Shown piece by piece: positions 2,531 to 25,255 of a DNA stretch of 28,892 nt. The notes under the pieces were generated by a model. It was given only the letters and a program-made list of their open reading frames with translations. It made no database searches and was not told where the DNA came from. Each line of letters begins with the position of its first letter. Position 1 is the first letter of the stretch. This DNA is from a virus. The DNA lies in the IMG/VR virus record IMGVR_UViG_3300028596_000052, positions 1-28,892 of that record; one strand, given 5' to 3'. The position numbers and the translations under genes were made by a program.

Positions 2531-3052
2531 TTACGCTGCCTGGTAGAAGCCGACGGCGCGGATCGCGTCCGTGCTCGCCCAGGTGAAGGGCGTGACGGCG
2601 TCGACCAGGCCCACGGAGACGGCGGCGTAGCCGCCTGCTGCGCCGGTGGAGCCACCGGTGGTCTCAAGTTCGAGAGCTGCGGTGGACGTGAGGCGGCAGC
2701 GCAGCGGGTACCGAGCGGAGCCGGGTGTTCCGCCGGTCGCGCTGTCCTGGGCTTCGCCGTATCCGACGATCAAGGCGGTGGTGGACGCGGTGACCGGGAG
2801 CGAGAAGCGCCAGTTGTCCGCCGACGTTCCTCCACCGAATGAGGTGGTGGTACCGAACGTGACCTCCAGCCGGAAGAACACGACGTCGCCGGTCTGGCAG
2901 TACGAGCCGGACAGTGTGGCGTTGCCGAGGCTGGGCGTTGCCGAACCGGTCGATGTGGACCACGTCGGCGTCCAGGACGACCAACGCGGTGTTATCTGGT
3001 TCAGCCGGGCGGCGGTGATTCGCTGCCCGGCCTGCCAGGGGGTAACCCCCAT
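2531..3052 (-). CDS. minor tail / structural protein
   Basis: A 173-residue protein rich in Ser, Thr and Gly with alternating short beta strands and no Cys-rich or catalytic motif. The beginning MGVTPWQAGQRITAARLN resembles N-termini of small structural proteins found between the tail-tip protein and the endolysin of many actinophages. AAGGAG lies 8 bases before the ATG and overlaps the stop of the tail-tip gene, so the two are co-translated. It probably forms a small beta-sandwich on the tail tip or fibre. Function is inferred from composition and position. Confidence 0.7.
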   Translation of the reverse strand: MGVTPWQAGQRITAARLNQITPRWSSWTPTWSTSTGSATPSLGNATLSGSYCQTGDVVFFRLEVTFGTTTSFGGGTSADNWRFSLPVTASTTALIVGYGEAQDSATGGTPGSARYPLRCRLTSTAALELETTGGSTGAAGGYAAVSVGLVDAVTPFTWASTDAIRAVGFYQAA

Positions 3053-3063
3053 AAAGCGTCTCC

Positions 3064-6000
3064 TTACAGTGCCGTGATGGCGGGGTAGGCGAGACGCACG
3101 TCAGCACCTGCCGAGTGTGTTTTGACGACCCCATTCATGGACCGAGTCACAGTAAAGGTCTGCGGATTCACGACCTTGAAATTGTCGAACTGTATCTGCG
3201 GGTTCACGCTCGTGTTTGTGGTGTCCCTGTAGGAGCGAATTCCGACACTGTCCACGGTGGTGATGCTGGTGTCGGACGCCGACAGGTTCCAGTCCCCCGG
3301 TTCGGGGGTGGTGAGCTCCCATACGCGAGCGCGAACCGTGCTTCCCGTTACCTGGAATCGCGTGCGGAGGAAGGTGCCACCTGCGTGCGTGACCGGAACG
3401 GTGTACGTAGCTAGCTGGGTACCCGATCCCGACACGCGCTTCTGGAGAGTCGCAATGACGGTGCTGCTCGTCGTGTATTCCAGTCGCAGGTTGTAGAAGT
3501 TGGAGTTGTCGACCGTGCGGATGACAGGTCCCGCGAAGATCGGCCCTCCGGTGGGGATCGTTGCCGTGGTGATGTCGACGTACACGTCGATATCCGCACT
3601 CGGAGCTGTGATCAGTGCGAGCCGAGCGGAGTTGACTGCCGAAGGGGAGATGGCTCCGTAACCGCCGGTCACTGAGAAGTCTGCCGCAGTGCCGGTGGTC
3701 GCCCAGGTCTGCCCGGAATCCGCTGTACCCCAGCCGTTACTTTCGGTGCGACCGAACTTGTCGTACACGCTGCGCGTGCACCCCGTGACCCGCATGACTT
3801 CACCGCCGATACGGATATCGAAAGGGAAGTCATCAGGGAGTTCGTCGTCCACGGTGGGGCGCAGAGTCAGCATGTCGGAATACAGGACGTCGGTTGCCGG
3901 AGGGAAATCCGGGACCGTCGGAGACATGTTGACGTACGCCGCGCTCGCGGGCGCAATCGCCGTCCCCTGGAACCACGTCCATTCACCGGCCGTCAGCGTC
4001 TCGTTGGCTGAATTCGTGGACAGGTAGTTGAACGTGGCGTCGAACCAGTTGATGTTGAGGTCCACGCTGCGCGAGGTCTCGCACATCTGCCAGCCGGAGA
4101 AGGTGTACGACTTCCCGACGGTGACGGCGGTCATGTCGGACCCGGCGTTCGGGTACTGAGTGACCCCGTCCGGTGTCAGCTTCATGGACCAGTCGCCGAG
4201 GAAAGGCGGAATGCCCGGCGTTTCTACGCGTTCGATGGTGCAGCCATTCCCCGCCCAGCCGGTCAGGTCGGTTTCGAACGCGTAGTTGGTGACCAGGGAC
4301 GGGGCTGCGATCACCCATTCCGGACCGGAAGTCACCTGGACATCCACGTCGGTTTCCGTGGTGGTCAGGTCTTCCTTCAGCACGCTGCCGTCGGTGTCCG
4401 CGTGGGTGTACAGGCTCTGCGGCGAGTACGCCTCGTACGCCACGTTGTACGGTCCGTACGGCGTGCAGTTGTACTTGATGGTCCAGTGGTACTGATCGAA
4501 GGACTCCGTGTAGCCCTGAACAAGCAGGTCGATGGTGTCCGGCGGCAGCCACGGCGGCGGGTTGGTGATCTGGAGACGGCAGCCGAAGTCCGTCAGTAGC
4601 GCCGCCGAGACCGTGGCAGGTGCGTTCGCCAGGTCCACGGTGACCTGGGGGAAGCGCGTCTCGTCCCACGTGCCCCGGTGCAGGAGCCAGCCCGCGTGGT
4701 GCGAGGGCTGGTCGTCGCTGTACAGCTGGAAGGTGTACGACGTGTCGTACAGACCGATGCCGTTGGGCGGGCTCTGGGTGGACAGTGCCCCCGAGGTCAG
4801 CGTGGTGCGGGCGAAGGACCCGCCCTCTCGGGTAACGGTGACATCGTTCGTGACGAGCTGGTCGTCGTCCACGGGGTCCAGGGGCGCAACAAGTCCGTCC
4901 GACCCTTCGTAGTTCAGGACCATGGTGGGGACCTGGTTGTACAGGCTGGTGCGCTGCACCAGCTTGACGCCCAGGATGTCCCGCTGCTCCCCGAGGATTC
5001 CCTGGTCCACCTCCTCCGCGTTCCGCATGAGGTCGAGGACTGTGCTGCGGGACTGCACGCCCATCTGCTGATCGCCGAAGGCCGTGGTGTATGCGGTGAT
5101 GTCCTCCTCGACGCCCAGTCGGTGAACGCGGGCGGCAGCCCTCTCGCCATCCCATCCGATGAGCGCGTTGGTGGCGTTGGTGAACGCCTCTGAGTCGTCG
5201 GACAGAGCGAGGTGCCCAAACGCTGTGTCGTTCATCAGGCCGTCTTCACCGAAGCGGACCTGAGTGGCACGCCCCACCGTGTAGCCGGTAAGAGTTCCGG
5301 ATATCGCGCCGCTGACGCTGGTGTTCAGTGTGCTGGTGATGAGGTCGTAGCTGATGAGCCGGTAACTGATATTGCTACCGCTTGTCGTCAGCTCAACTCC
5401 GACGCTCTTCTTCTCGCCGTTCAGGGCGAAAAGGTAGTAGCCCGTGTTGAGGATCTCCGTCCCCTCGGCGTCATACGCCCTGAGTGCTAGCGATCCGTTG
5501 GTGTTCATGAAGACGGACCAGTTCCGCGCCGTACCGGTCTGGGTGAAGGAGAACAGGCGCTGCTCGGCGGCAACACCTGCTGCGGGAACGGCGATGAAAA
5601 CGCGCGTAAAGATGTAGCCCGTCGTCGTGTAGGCGGGGACGTTCGCCCGAAGGGAGCCGGTGCCTACCGTGAGAATGGGGTCCGATGCGGCCCAGTCGCT
5701 GTAGGCGGCGGGCGTGACGGTCCCCTTGATGGACATCGGGGAGTGCCCGTCGAATGCGGAGGCGATGCTTGTCGCTTCGCTTCCATCTTCCATCGGCCAG
5801 TAGGCGATGATTCCCGTGCGGTACGTAGAGGTGTACTCCCGGTACGCCGGAGACTTCGCGGCGACAACACCCTGGGAAAGCCGACGGAGAACACCCGATG
5901 CTTCCACGCGCGTGACGATGTCGTGCCCGCCGGTGTCCCATTCGGGCGTCCACGAGGAGATCTCGCCGACGAAGCGGACCTTCCGTTTGGTGATCTGGGT

Positions 6001-12057: not shown

Positions 12058-12732
12058 TCAGTTATGTTCGTGGGGACACACTCTGCCGTACCGCGTCATC
12101 GCGTTGCAGTTCCAGCAGAGAAGGCGATATCCGCCCTGCGGCCAGCCCCTCTGGCGCAGGTCGGCGTAGGTGTGACTCCCGACCGTCTTTCGGTGTTCCT
12201 TGCCATCGCCGTTCACGTGATCCAGCGTAAGAAACGCCGGATCCGTTTCCGGACACCACTGACATGCACACCGTCCGCCGTAGACTTCGATCATCTCTTC
12301 GCGGAGGTTCCTCCGCCTCGCAGCCTGTTCGTCGCGAGCTTTCTGCCGATACTTGTCCGGGTCGCCCCAGTAATTCTTCTTGGCGTAGCACTGAGCACAC
12401 AATCCGCGCGCAGATACTGCACGTTCTGGGTGACAAGTGGCACGCTCGGTAGGCAGCACACCCTTGCGGCGCGCTTTTTGGTAACAAGGGCGGCAGAGTC
12501 CCCGGCTGTAGTGATCCTTGTCTGGATGGCATCCAGCACTTCGTCGCTCTTTAGTCGGTGGCTTCCGGTAGTTCGGTGCGTAATCCTCCGAATCCTTGCG
12601 CCTATCCGGACGCCCCTTGCGTCGCGCGTCGTATTCCCGCATGTAACACTGCGAGCAAAGACCTTTTGCCTGATGGGGCCTGTCGGGGTGACAGATCGGT
12701 GGTTCGTCTTTTGCGCGTCCGGTACGTGCCAT
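12058..12732 (-). CDS. HNH homing endonuclease with three zinc modules
   Basis: A 224-residue protein. Residues 14-30, 68-84 and 100-116 are three copies of a C-H-P-x9-C-x2-C-Y zinc module (cysteines 14/26/29, 68/80/83, 100/112/115), probably for DNA recognition. The C-terminal HNH nuclease has CACQWC (155-160), LDHVNGDGKEH (170-180) and CWNCN (206-210). It is a free-standing insert in the tail operon between the short tail-tube gene and the chaperones, a common place for mobile nucleases. It is less GC-rich than its neighbours. There is no ribosome site; the ATG lies in one arm of an 18-bp hairpin, and a -10-like TAATCT lies 6 bases before the ATG. That suggests repression in the long transcript and leaderless translation from a local promoter. 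It should nick or cut an unoccupied homing site in related phages. Confidence 0.88.
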   Translation of the reverse strand: MARTGRAKDEPPICHPDRPHQAKGLCSQCYMREYDARRKGRPDRRKDSEDYAPNYRKPPTKERRSAGCHPDKDHYSRGLCRPCYQKARRKGVLPTERATCHPERAVSARGLCAQCYAKKNYWGDPDKYRQKARDEQAARRRNLREEMIEVYGGRCACQWCPETDPAFLTLDHVNGDGKEHRKTVGSHTYADLRQRGWPQGGYRLLCWNCNAMTRYGRVCPHEHN

Positions 12733-22162: not shown

Positions 22163-22456
22163 ATGACCACGACCCTTGCCGACCTGCGTAAGCGCGCTGG
22201 GCTGTCGCAGTCCCAGATGGCGAAGAAGATGGGCGTGAGCAACACGCAGGTGAGCCGTATCGAAGCGAGCTATCCGGACGTCATGTTCCCGACGCTGCGC
22301 CGGTACATGGATGCGGTAGGCGTAGACATCCGGTTCGTCGGCGAAGGCGTCATCGACGACGTGTCCGACGAGGTGGAGAAGGATGTCTTCCGGTCCGCCA
22401 CGGTCGAGAACAAGCGCGCCGATCCGAGCCGTGGCTTCGGCCGCAAGAGCGCCTGA
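22163..22456 (+). CDS. XRE-family helix-turn-helix regulator (moron-like)
   Basis: A 97-residue protein with an XRE/lambda-Cro type HTH at about residues 5-50 (LADLRKRAGLSQSQMAKKMGVSNTQVSRIEA). The tail is charged (DEVEKDVFRSATVENKRADPSRG). AAGGAGACAAGCC precedes the ATG. It runs opposite to the late operon and sits divergent from portal with only 49 bases between, so it must have its own promoter there or within portal. Its stop meets that of the small membrane gene tail to tail. The layout is that of a moron gene: possibly a superinfection repressor, a HigA-like antitoxin or a late-operon regulator. No toxin partner is visible. Confidence 0.85.
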   Translation: MTTTLADLRKRAGLSQSQMAKKMGVSNTQVSRIEASYPDVMFPTLRRYMDAVGVDIRFVGEGVIDDVSDEVEKDVFRSATVENKRADPSRGFGRKSA

Positions 22457-22654
22457 TCACTGGCCGGAGAAGAACTGCCACTGGAGCACCGCAGCGCCGA
22501 GACCGGCGGCGATGACTCCCGCAGGGATGTAGATCATCCCGATGCCGAGCGCGACCAGCGCTACGGCGGCCAGGGCCAGAAGGCCCGACATGATCGACCC
22601 TGCTGCCCCTGGTGCCAGCTTGGGCAGCAGGGTCTTCCTTGTTGAAGCGTGCAT
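22457..22654 (-). CDS. small two-helix membrane protein
   Basis: A 65-residue protein starting at ATG 22652-22654 with GGGGAGG about 6 bases upstream. Two hydrophobic helices, about residues 22-40 (MSGLLALAAVALVALGIGM) and 43-60 (IPAGVIAAGLGAAVLQW). Charged N-terminus. It lies between terminase and portal, as small membrane proteins do in several actinophage clusters. It could affect entry exclusion, but nothing in the sequence shows this. The upstream spacer holds the relic of the terminase end. Confidence 0.7.
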   Translation of the reverse strand: MHASTRKTLLPKLAPGAAGSIMSGLLALAAVALVALGIGMIYIPAGVIAAGLGAAVLQWQFFSGQ

Positions 22655-22686
22655 GGGTCCTCCCCGCTTTCGACCCGCCGAGAGGG

Positions 22687-22746
22687 TCACAGGAAACGCA
22701 TTCGTGGCGTGGTGCCGTTGTAGTGCGCGAGCAGCAGGGCGTCAGT
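22687..22746 (-). pseudogene. relic of the original 3' end of the large terminase gene
   Basis: On the minus strand 19 codons plus TGA read TDALLLAHYNGTTPRMRFL, matching the C-terminus of the large terminase encoded 750 bases upstream (ADALLLAYFSGSTPRMRFL) at 14 of 19 residues. It has no start and no connection to an open frame, because the codons before it differ and a stop lies a few codons upstream. The HNH gene begins just beyond it, at 22764 on the other strand. It is best explained as the native terminase end displaced when the HNH element inserted. Confidence 0.85.
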
Positions 22747-22763
22747 GCGATACGATCATCTGC

Positions 22764-23459
22764 ATGGAACCGCCTGCTGAAATTGAGTACCGGGGTGTCA
22801 TGTATAAGCGAAACCCCGAAAGTTCTGAGTGGTCGAAACGGGTCTACTACCTTGCTCCTCGGGGGAGTGGGCGCAGCTACCTTCACCGGGACGTCTACGT
22901 GGACACCTACGGCGCGATACTGGAGGGCCACCACATACACCACCGGGACTTCGACCCGTTTAACAATGTCCCGGAGAACCTCGTAGCTCTCTCGCCCTCG
23001 GAGCACCAGAAGCTACACCGGGAACGCAACGGCAAGTTCGACGAAGAACGCCTTGCGATACACCGTGCGACCACTTTGAAAGCCGCTGCCGAATGGCATG
23101 GCAGCGAAGAGGGACGCGCATGGCACCGCGAGCATGGGAAACGCACCTGGGAAGGTCGCAGCCCGGACGGTGTGTTCACGTGTCCGGAGTGCGGTACAGA
23201 GCACGCCGGGTACTTCGCGAATCGCGGCGAGCCGACGAAGGAGAGGTACTGTTCTTCGTCCTGCCGTCAGCGTGGTGATCGTCGTCAGGGAAAACGCGAG
23301 AACTGGGGTGAAGAGGTTTCCTGTGCGTTCTGCGGCAACGCCTTCAAGCGCATCCCCAGCACGCAACAGGAAACCTGCTCACGGAGTTGCGGTGCGAAGC
23401 TCCGGTGGCAGAGGAAGCGCGACAGCGACAAAGCTACAGAAACCGCATCCTCGGAGTAG
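22764..23459 (+). CDS. HNH homing endonuclease inserted in antisense at the terminase 3' end
   Basis: A 231-residue nuclease read against the late operon. HNH core at residues 54-85: EGHHIHHRDFDPFNNVPENLVAL then EHQKLH, with His56, 57, 59 and 60, Asn72 and His81. Two C-terminal zinc fingers follow: C140-C143-C163-C167 and C187-C190-C205-C209, then a basic tail. ATG 22764 has no ribosome site but a TACGAT -10-like box 7 bases upstream, so leaderless translation is possible. The gene fills nearly the whole segment between the terminase relic (22687-22746) and the replacement terminase end, and overlaps the terminase stop by 26 bases. GC content is lower than in neighbours. It likely promotes its own transfer between related phages. 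Confidence 0.9.
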   Translation: MEPPAEIEYRGVMYKRNPESSEWSKRVYYLAPRGSGRSYLHRDVYVDTYGAILEGHHIHHRDFDPFNNVPENLVALSPSEHQKLHRERNGKFDEERLAIHRATTLKAAAEWHGSEEGRAWHREHGKRTWEGRSPDGVFTCPECGTEHAGYFANRGEPTKERYCSSSCRQRGDRRQGKRENWGEEVSCAFCGNAFKRIPSTQQETCSRSCGAKLRWQRKRDSDKATETASSE

Positions 23460-23493
23460 AACCGGAAAAATAGGCCAAAAGGAGAGCATCCGC
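23434..23493 (-). repeat. recoded copy of the terminase 3' end
   Basis: The last 19 codons and stop of the live terminase gene. They encode ADALLLAYFSGSTPRMRFL, the peptide of the relic at 22687-22746 with five changes. Of 14 shared residues, 12 use a different codon in the two copies; only the single Met codon and the last Leu codon are the same. Base use is also more AT-rich here (CTC CTT TTG GCC TAT TTT against CTG CTG CTC GCG CAC TAC). Confidence 0.88.
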
Positions 23494-24945
23494 GTTATCG
23501 GGACTTCGGCCGCACCGACGGATGATGTCGTCCTTCGCCTCGACCTGGATCAGGCCCTTGGCGTCCAGGTACCAGCGCGGCCACAGAAGCTGGGCGCACG
23601 CGGTGTCCGCGTTCTCCATCTGGGACAGGTCCCAGCCACCGGCCGCCGAGAACTCGCGGCCGATCGTCCACCACATCTCGGCCCGCAGGTTCTTGAACTT
23701 CTTTTTGTCGTGCGGGTTCGAGGAGACGTTCACGCCGACGATCTGTGCGTTGTGCTCGCCCCGGCGGGCCGCGTTGCGCAGCTCGCCGATCACGCCGAAG
23801 CCCACGCCGATCGAGTCGATCTTTACCTTGGTGGCACCGCTGATCCGCAGTGCCCGCAGTACGAGGGGGGCGATCTTCTCGGGTCGGTCCGTCCGGATAC
23901 GCCATTCGCGTCCGGCGAGAACACCGCGACGTTCGCGGATGACCGTCTCGTCGGAACCACCGCCCACGTCCACGCCCAGTTCCACAGGCGAGAGGTCAGC
24001 GGGGGAGTACTTGGTCTCCGGGTCCAGTCGGCAGGCTGCCACATCGGATGCCCTCACCACCGTGTCGGCCGCGTCGACCGAGAACTCGCCGAGCACCTTC
24101 GATCGGTACAGGGCGTTGTCCTCGCCCCAGTCCTGCTTCTTCTCCTCGACCCACACCTGGGAGACCAGGGAGGCGGCCACGTTCTCGCTGACCGGCTCGC
24201 CGGTGAAGTTCGGGGAGTCGAACGCCGAGATGCCCATCGTCTGCCAGCCGGAGCCCGGCTGACAGACCTTGTAGAAGTGCGTGGCCGAGTTGTCCGGGTT
24301 GCCGATCGCGAGGATGCGGCAGTCCGGACCGGTGGCCAGTGCGTCGGCTGCGACCCAGAGCTGCTCCGGTACGCCGCACGCCTCGTCGATGACGACGAGT
24401 ACGTACCGCGCGTGAATGCCCTGGAAGGCGCTCTCGTCCTGGTCGGCGGGCTTGCGACCGTAGGCGACGATCTCTTCGTCGATCAACCATTCGGTTTGGT
24501 TCACGCGACCGGGCAGGCCCACCGACTTGTGGAACCGGCGTACGTAACGCCAGAGAATCGCACGGACCTGAGCGGTGGTCGGTGCCGTCGTTACGACGAA
24601 CGCCTCGCCCGGCGGGTGGGAGTCCAGCCACCAGGAGATCGCCAGCGCGGCGACGTGGGACTTGCCGATGCCGTGGCACGAGTGCACGGCGGTGCGGCGG
24701 TAGTCCCTGACGGACTCCAGGATGTCCCGCTGCTTTGACCAGACGGCCTGCCCGAGTCGCTCGTCGACCCAGAGCGCCGGGTCCGACATGTACTTGGACT
24801 GGCGCACGGTGGACTGCTTGCGGTCGACCGCTGCCTTGAGCTGGTCCCGGACGATCTTCAGCCGCTTGGTGTCGCCGGTGCGGATCAGTCGCTCGACCAG
24901 CTCCTGCATGGCCTGCGGGTCCATCGTCCCGAGATCAGTTGTCAT
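23434..24945 (-). CDS. terL: terminase large subunit
   Basis: A 503-residue DNA-packaging motor and nuclease. ATPase: Walker A HGIGKS (91-96), Walker B VVIDEA (184-189, Asp187 and Glu188), coupling motif AIGNPD (213-218). RNase H-like nuclease: Asp326 in ELGVDVGGG, Asp377 in KIDSIGVG and Asp486 in NADALLLA. The second ATG (24943-24945) was chosen because AGGGGA lies directly against the first and 6 bases from the second. The start overlaps the upstream gene by 11 bases. The last 19 codons are a recoded copy of a sequence left behind at 22687-22746, so the C-terminus, including Asp486, seems to have been supplied by the HNH element. Confidence 0.95.
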   Translation of the reverse strand: MTTDLGTMDPQAMQELVERLIRTGDTKRLKIVRDQLKAAVDRKQSTVRQSKYMSDPALWVDERLGQAVWSKQRDILESVRDYRRTAVHSCHGIGKSHVAALAISWWLDSHPPGEAFVVTTAPTTAQVRAILWRYVRRFHKSVGLPGRVNQTEWLIDEEIVAYGRKPADQDESAFQGIHARYVLVVIDEACGVPEQLWVAADALATGPDCRILAIGNPDNSATHFYKVCQPGSGWQTMGISAFDSPNFTGEPVSENVAASLVSQVWVEEKKQDWGEDNALYRSKVLGEFSVDAADTVVRASDVAACRLDPETKYSPADLSPVELGVDVGGGSDETVIRERRGVLAGREWRIRTDRPEKIAPLVLRALRISGATKVKIDSIGVGFGVIGELRNAARRGEHNAQIVGVNVSSNPHDKKKFKNLRAEMWWTIGREFSAAGGWDLSQMENADTACAQLLWPRWYLDAKGLIQVEAKDDIIRRCGRSPDNADALLLAYFSGSTPRMRFL

Positions 24946-25255
24946 GTTCATTCCCCTGTACTGCGGTCAGCAGGTACAGCGGCGGGTCCATGTCCATGGG
25001 GACGGTGCGCGCCTGTACGTACGCCTCGGCCGGGTTCTCGGGGTCCAGCAGGACGTGACCCTCGGCGTTGGTCCGGTACTCCTCGAAGTCGATGACCCAG
25101 ATGCCGTCGGAGTTCTCGCGGATGATGACCTCGCTGTCGGCGGGAACGAGGTTGGCGTTCACCCCGTTCAGACCGAGCCAGCCCCTGATCTCACCCCGGC
25201 GCAGCTCCGGAGTCTGCTTCCAGAGCGTGCCGTTGGTGACGATCCAGGTGGTCAT
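24935..25255 (-). CDS. hypothetical protein between the terminase genes
   Basis: A 106-residue acidic protein, ATG 25253-25255 overlapping the small terminase stop (ATGA) and with GAGGA upstream. Beta-rich start (TTWIVTNGTLWKQTP) and FEEYRTNAEGHVLLDPENPAEAYVQARTVPM. No motif recognised. It is translationally coupled on both sides, so a packaging accessory or moron-like role is possible. Nothing more can be said from sequence. Confidence 0.7.
   Translation of the reverse strand: MTTWIVTNGTLWKQTPELRRGEIRGWLGLNGVNANLVPADSEVIIRENSDGIWVIDFEEYRTNAEGHVLLDPENPAEAYVQARTVPMDMDPPLYLLTAVQGNEHDN

Follow-up and report, generated by a model that had tools for sequence, protein, structure and literature searches.

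A putative homing element in phages that couples an HNH nuclease gene with a replacement 3′ end for the large terminase gene

Organization of the terminase locus

The window (the whole stretch of DNA analysed here, 28,892 bases) corresponds to an IMG/VR-class virus record that lacks an annotated genome and may be a fragment. Its large terminase gene (TerL) lies on the minus strand and is followed by an HNH endonuclease gene on the plus strand and then by a second, startless copy of the TerL 3′ end, here called the relic. The features of the locus are listed below; labels such as L003 denote the loci with which the window was compared.

24951–23434, minus strand: TerL gene, whole; 505 aa; matches the PHROG terminase large subunit.
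23509–24951, minus strand: TerL body, codons 1–481, native to the window phage; PHROG terminase large subunit, 1e-36; 95% amino-acid identity over the body to the HNH-less L003, with ordinary codons.
23434–23508, minus strand: carried TerL 3′ end, codons 482–505 plus stop, in frame and containing the nuclease-motif Asp488; codon-usage outlier, with an equivalent block in L327 and L358.
22764–23459, plus strand: HNH endonuclease gene, 231 aa, with an HNH_3 domain and then two four-cysteine zinc fingers; PF13392, E = 1e-8; PHROG HNH, 1e-30.
23434–23459, no strand assigned: antisense overlap of 26 nt between the HNH 3′ end and the carried TerL tail, from the coordinates.
22747–22763, no strand assigned: far end of the element, where the relic meets the HNH start; contains the hexamer TACGAT, 7 nt upstream of the ATG; read from the sequence, with a promoter role inferred.
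22687–22746, minus strand: relic, the displaced native TerL 3′ end, startless; 80–85% nucleotide identity to native ends and codon usage normal for the gene.
22457–22655, minus strand: next native gene, encoding a small hydrophobic protein; in the HNH-less L010 and L016, a homologue comes immediately after the native TerL end.

The live TerL tail reads DALLLAYFSGSTPRMRFL followed by a stop and ends at 23434, and the relic reads (T)DALLLAHYNGTTPRMRFL followed by a stop. A preliminary description, made without comparison to other genomes, had placed the two tails at these positions in the same orientation, and this held, both being on the minus strand. Its claim that the HNH gene fills the space between them held in part, as the gene, running from its ATG at 22764 to 23459, also overlaps the last 26 nt of TerL in antisense. 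The relic was recovered by tblastn within the 28.9 kb window (E = 9e-7), and a second TerL tail was present at only 2 of the 81 loci compared, the window being one of them. The Asp of the nuclease motif, which we take from established knowledge of these enzymes to be the third metal-binding residue, is residue 488 when counted from the ATG at 24951 and 486 from the ATG at 24945; the earlier statement that Asp486 lies in the replaced part thus held, with a number that depends on the start chosen.

The HNH protein of the window passes the curated cut-off of PF13392 HNH_3 (35.1 bits versus 24.8), and the His/Asn catalytic and Cys zinc-finger columns, invariant across 19 members of the HNH family, are intact in it. 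This was its sole match in a profile search, which returned no match to the intein-derived WHO/HO/VDE nucleases. A PDB sequence search with the protein gave no match, nor did a scan of genome contigs. A TANNNT hexamer lies 6–7 nt before the HNH start, as TACGAT in the window and TAGAAT in L327, and is less clear in L358; hexamers of this form at such a spacing are as found in leaderless promoters. Elsewhere in the window, another, different HNH gene occurs among the downstream structural genes (12058–12732, minus strand), and a Cro/C1-type HTH regulator gene between the portal gene and TerL (22163–22456, plus strand) runs antisense to the head genes around it.

The relic is the native terminase end

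Each of the 14 close TerL relatives (73–95% amino-acid identity) ends in one native tail only, which reads NADALLLAYYNG..PRMRFL or nearly so and is written in GC-rich codons. This native end is joined straight to the next gene, which in L010 and L016 is homologous to the next gene of the window, and an HNH family gene near TerL is absent from all 14. Across 94 TerL relatives (the 14 close and 80 wider ones, the sets overlapping), the native end is single and the HNH family is absent in all but one. Compared with the native ends of L003, L005, L009, L010 and L016, the relic has 80–85% nucleotide identity and the live tail 61–67%. The relic thus resembles the ends of close relatives, unlike the live tail, and this identifies it as the displaced original: the native end of this gene has been pushed aside, and what remains beyond the HNH gene is the original TerL terminus.

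The preliminary description had predicted that relatives lacking the HNH gene would carry the relic-type end with nothing between it and the upstream codons. This held, with the same gene downstream in L010 and L016. It had also named the finding that would refute its reading, HNH-less relatives carrying the live version natively, and this was not met; the best live-tail match among the 80 wider relatives is L327, which itself bears the element.

The live tail is written in foreign codons

Comparing the live and relic tails, 12 of the 14 shared residues use different codons, and only the ATG and the last CTG are identical, exactly as had been counted in the preliminary description. Relative to L003 (95% amino-acid identity), synonymous differences affect 110 of 429 comparable codons in the TerL body and 14 of 15 in the tail (Fisher, 1.2e-7). 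When scored under the gene's own codon usage, the live tail falls below all of 20,000 simulated tails (20,000/20,000; P about 5e-5), and none of 468 body windows is as codon-odd (0/468); the relic scores like the body. The GC content at third codon positions falls from 0.89 in the body to 0.50 in the live tail, compared with 0.83 in the relic.

The odd-codon block starts at codon 482–483 (about 23508), roughly six codons upstream of the point at which the relic starts, so neither copy retains the bases of the original site that lay between the two joins. The earlier placement of the start of the replaced part at 23493 therefore held only in part, the block beginning earlier. Antisense overlap with the HNH gene was considered as a cause of the odd codons and ruled out: the overlap covers 26 nt of the 75-nt block in the window, only 2–3 nt in L327 and none in L358, and with overlap nearly nil in these two loci it does not explain the codon usage.

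The origin of the tail is less certain. L302, an HNH-less TerL, has a tail (around 3900–3970) that is 81% identical to the carried tail of the window and is the most similar among HNH-less ones; it may represent the source lineage of the captured tail, a cured site or a resistant allele. Given this match, it is also possible that the live tail is merely a captured piece of a divergent TerL, or the product of natural divergence, and no resistance feature. We thus use 'recoded' only to describe the live tail. The claim of the preliminary description that recoding alters the nuclease target goes beyond the evidence, as there are no cleavage or resistance data and codon-based resistance to cutting is inferred.

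Three divergent terminases share the HNH gene and tail as a unit

Two other loci, L327 and L358, whose TerL proteins are 67% and 52% identical to that of the window, have the layout of the window, with an odd-codon tail, an antisense HNH gene and a relic, and with HNH proteins 58–59% identical to the window's. L327 was found among the 80 wider TerL relatives. Its HNH gene (58% identical to the window's at the protein level) is antisense and directly follows TerL, and beyond it lies a relic, SDALLLAFYSGTRMRVRWL, with codons of its own that differ from those of the live tail. L358 was found by a scan with the L327 HNH; its tail is 81–83% identical to the window and L327 tails, and its relic is interrupted by an internal stop, that is, decayed. 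All three members of this window type are metagenomic or environmental contigs.

Kinship among the tails follows the element and not the TerL body. Over the tail block of codons 482–497, the window and L327 share 85% of nucleotides versus 69% for the body, and none of 446 body windows reaches so high (0/446). Among the 80 wider relatives, L327 is the closest to the window by tail and only the 59th by TerL body, and the nearest relatives by body (95%) rank only 67th–68th by tail. The HNH proteins also disagree with the TerL bodies: L327 and L358 share 76% identity in HNH and 51% in the TerL body, whereas the window and L327 share 58% in HNH and 67% in TerL. From this discordance we conclude that the HNH gene and the tail move horizontally as one element.

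These comparisons bear on two alternative explanations of the locus. One is tandem duplication, in which the TerL 3′ end was doubled, the HNH gene landed between the two equal copies and one copy later diverged. In its favour, copies of the tail do flank the HNH gene on both sides. Under this scenario, however, the live copy, being under selection, should look native and the free copy should decay, and the reverse is seen; further, the identical kind of foreign tail recurs in L327 and L358. Tandem duplication is thereby all but excluded. The other is a chimera of metagenome assembly, which the status of the window as an IMG/VR-class contig, possibly a fragment, would allow. Against it, the arrangement recurs in the independent contigs L327 and L358, the reading frame is unbroken through the junction and relatives match the flanks on both sides, leaving almost no room for this explanation.

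Tail-type elements recur in unrelated terminases

Arrangements of this type are also present in TerL genes unrelated to that of the window. In L077 and L160, the TerL tail is followed by an HNH gene in sense orientation and then by a relic tail; in L018, a strongly odd-codon tail is followed directly by the HNH gene, without a relic. The relics begin within about 3 codons of the same TerL Asp. Tail codons are outliers in the window, L327, L358, L018 and L160 (each P about 2e-4); in L077 the bias is weak, with 22 of 382 body windows as odd as the tail. Tail-type elements thus recur in unrelated terminases. Two candidates were rejected as cases of tail exchange: L037, which has normal tail codons (P = 0.10) and no convincing relic, and Shemara (L034), in which HNH-less relatives match at 90–93% almost to the TerL end. 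In L359, an HNH gene (2922–3663; 43% identical to that of L327) lies directly after a TerL that ends in QHDDQVDALSDAFAALLGSKKAHVIDW.

In a tree of the HNH family, the window and L327 are sisters (support 99), L037 branches next (90), and the remaining tail-type members are scattered among intein-borne HNHs. Well-supported branches force at least three changes of the tail-type label, whether gains or losses. This is a quick maximum-likelihood tree, for which a careful search was unfinished, and L358, found later, was left out.

A third alternative is that two unrelated events are superimposed at the locus, an ordinary free-standing HNH gene having landed after TerL and the tail having been exchanged separately by homologous recombination. 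Free-standing HNH genes beside TerL are indeed common, Shemara has an antisense HNH gene after TerL without tail exchange, and L037 likewise has no unusual tail. Yet the tail, the antisense HNH gene and the relic occur together in three TerLs that are 51–67% identical, with tail kinship tracking the element, and homologous recombination would leave no relic. We regard this explanation as very unlikely.

Most members of the HNH family lie out of frame within terminase inteins

At 75 of 103 HNH loci, the gene lies inside an open reading frame whose TerL sequence is interrupted by an intein at the same nuclease Asp motif. The HNH gene is out of frame in the intein region, with the intein frame at +1 relative to HNH in 71 of the 75. 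Intein examples checked in Pfam matched Hint_2 and, in some cases, also Intein_splicing. The combined probability of the frames staying open by chance is about 1e-96 under codon shuffling with loci treated as independent, a value that is overstated because some of the loci are related. The GC content of these loci spans 0.31–0.69. The regions appear to be dual-coding. The intein class was assigned automatically with visual checks, and exact splice junctions are unresolved in some loci. Out-of-frame HNH genes within a TerL intein reading frame were observed in L017, L019, L020–L023, L027 (Tetrasphaera phage TJE1), L031 (Acinetobacter phage Highwayman), L036 and most of L038–L115.

At ten further loci, the intein at this motif appears to be split, its two halves flanking the HNH gene: L030 (Lactobacillus phage CL2), L035 (Vibrio phage 1.238.A), L060, L063, L066, L067, L068, L073, L083 and L105. 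Insertion points vary by a few codons between TerL families and stay around the catalytic-Asp motif, where the tail-type relics also begin; that the HNH family sits mostly at the same TerL motif implies a conserved target. Two loci depart from these arrangements. In L025 (Exiguobacterium phage vB_EauM-23; 2270–3180), TerL stops just before the motif and is followed by the HNH gene and then by a CDATRYAMEMD continuation; we found no intein signature and no Rfam intron match in this interruption, which could be an undescribed intron. In L026 (Acinetobacter phage vB_AbaM_BP10; 2489–3130), the HNH family member is free-standing, just upstream of the gene for the terminase small subunit, and TerL is intact.

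The genomic setting of the family bears on a fourth alternative, in which the HNH protein is a packaging partner of the terminase (of the HK97 gp74 type), kept for the benefit of the phage, and not a homing nuclease. HNH genes beside terminases can aid packaging (PMC11855218), and the HNH gene of the window does adjoin TerL. Against this, the gene is missing from every one of the 14 close relatives, the family is mostly found out of frame inside TerL inteins, a setting of mobile elements, and the HNH gene moves between divergent TerLs. A packaging role as the reason for its presence is therefore improbable to a high degree.

Proposed mechanism

We consider it very likely that the locus holds a homing element composed of an HNH nuclease gene and its own copy of the last ~24 TerL codons. 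That the element carries its own TerL end and that the relic is the displaced original had been proposed in the preliminary description, and both are supported by the comparison with native ends and by the co-travel of HNH gene and tail in L327 and L358. The cutting itself, its position, resistance to it and the setting of co-infection are inferred. In the proposed mechanism, the HNH protein would cut an uninterrupted terminase gene at the codons around the conserved Asp (DN-ADALLL), and the double-strand break would be repaired from an element-bearing genome during co-infection. Repair would join the upstream codons of the recipient to the tail of the element and insert the HNH gene, leaving TerL intact and in frame. 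The relic of the donor may supply the downstream homology, as has been suggested for the FBA1 fragment of WHO elements (PMC7282813), and the recipient's own TerL end would become the new startless relic. Renewed cutting at the new junction is not expected, given the different codons of the live tail and the loss from the relic of the bases before the Asp.

Relation to known homing systems

In the yeasts Torulaspora and Lachancea, WHO elements target FBA1, the aldolase gene, for homing; they substitute its 3′ end and leave fragments behind (PMC7282813). The window element resembles them in that a nuclease gene follows an essential host gene, whose 3′ end is replaced in frame by an element-borne version without splicing, and in that the old end is pushed downstream, where its frame is dispensable and it is free to decay, as a displaced native fragment beyond the nuclease in the window and L327 and with an internal stop in the L358 relic. 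In both systems, the nuclease may be oriented opposite to the host gene, and the 5′ and 3′ parts of the host gene conflict in their ancestry, seen here as the disagreement between TerL rankings by body (5′) and by tail (3′). WHO nucleases, however, are intein-derived relatives of HO/VDE with zinc fingers and reside in yeast nuclear genomes, whereas the window element has an HNH_3 domain with zinc fingers and resides at a phage terminase. Moreover, the tail in the window is only ~24 codons long, and allele-specific cutting, which has been proven for WHO elements (PMC7282813), is inferred for the window.

Fungal mitochondrial mORFs, known for example from Allomyces and Glomus, carry foreign C-termini of atp6, cox2, nad3 and other genes (PMC3630166). 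The window meets this pattern of an endonuclease reading frame with an inserted foreign C-terminus and the native C-terminus displaced downstream, including high nucleotide divergence with near-complete protein identity. It does not share the mitochondrial setting with a LAGLIDADG or GIY-YIG nuclease: mORFs encode nucleases of these families in organelle genomes, often in sense and in phase with the host gene, whereas the window has an antisense HNH gene in a phage. Because the nuclease family differs, the window element is a member of neither the WHO elements nor the mORFs.

The nearest phage precedent is the ShiLan-type insertion, in which a phage methylase gene conceals an HNH gene in another frame (PMC11855218). 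It too is an HNH homing insertion in a phage gene that is not a standard intron, its HNH is out of frame like those of the TerL-intein relatives, and some of the inserted sequence is similar to the adjoining host gene. Unlike the window element, it interrupts the gene internally without breaking the frame and probably stays in the protein, with neither 3′-end replacement nor a relic. TerL inteins with a homing endonuclease have the HNH family and the TerL motif in common with the window, which differs in lacking a splicing domain; here a replacement end, and not protein splicing, spares the host gene. Tests for known classes in the window were negative: the 505-aa TerL reading frame contains no insert and gave no Hint match, arguing against an intein, and a group I intron found no support, with no Rfam match and with TerL reaching its own in-frame stop ahead of nearly all of the HNH gene. 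Nor does the locus fit a free-standing homing endonuclease gene of the T4 seg/mob type, as the neighbouring TerL end has been exchanged and the original displaced.

In the open-access literature searched, we found no report of a phage homing element that replaces a 3′ end or of out-of-frame HNH genes in TerL inteins, which is not proof of absence. The strategy of 3′-end replacement is known from yeast and fungal mitochondria, and, as far as this literature goes, the phage case appears new.

Implications

A bolder reading takes in the whole family. We judge it likely, as a single proposition, that one HNH family is specialized on a single site in unrelated phage terminases, the last catalytic-Asp motif, and has repeatedly evolved routes that spare the host gene: inteins encoded together with an HNH gene in another frame, split inteins whose halves flank the HNH gene and, on more than one occasion, a 3′-end replacement brought by the element, with displacement of the original. 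The window would be of the last kind, a phage counterpart of the yeast WHO elements. With native, occupied and relic ends all available, the mechanism is directly testable with one purified protein and three short DNAs. Terminase is a common marker in phage phylogeny, and the element gives a mechanism for abrupt sequence changes at the terminase end. If the proposed reading is true, 3′-end replacement would be a general, convergent way of homing without splicing, extending to phages and to an unrelated nuclease, with apparently several independent origins and with relics preserved.
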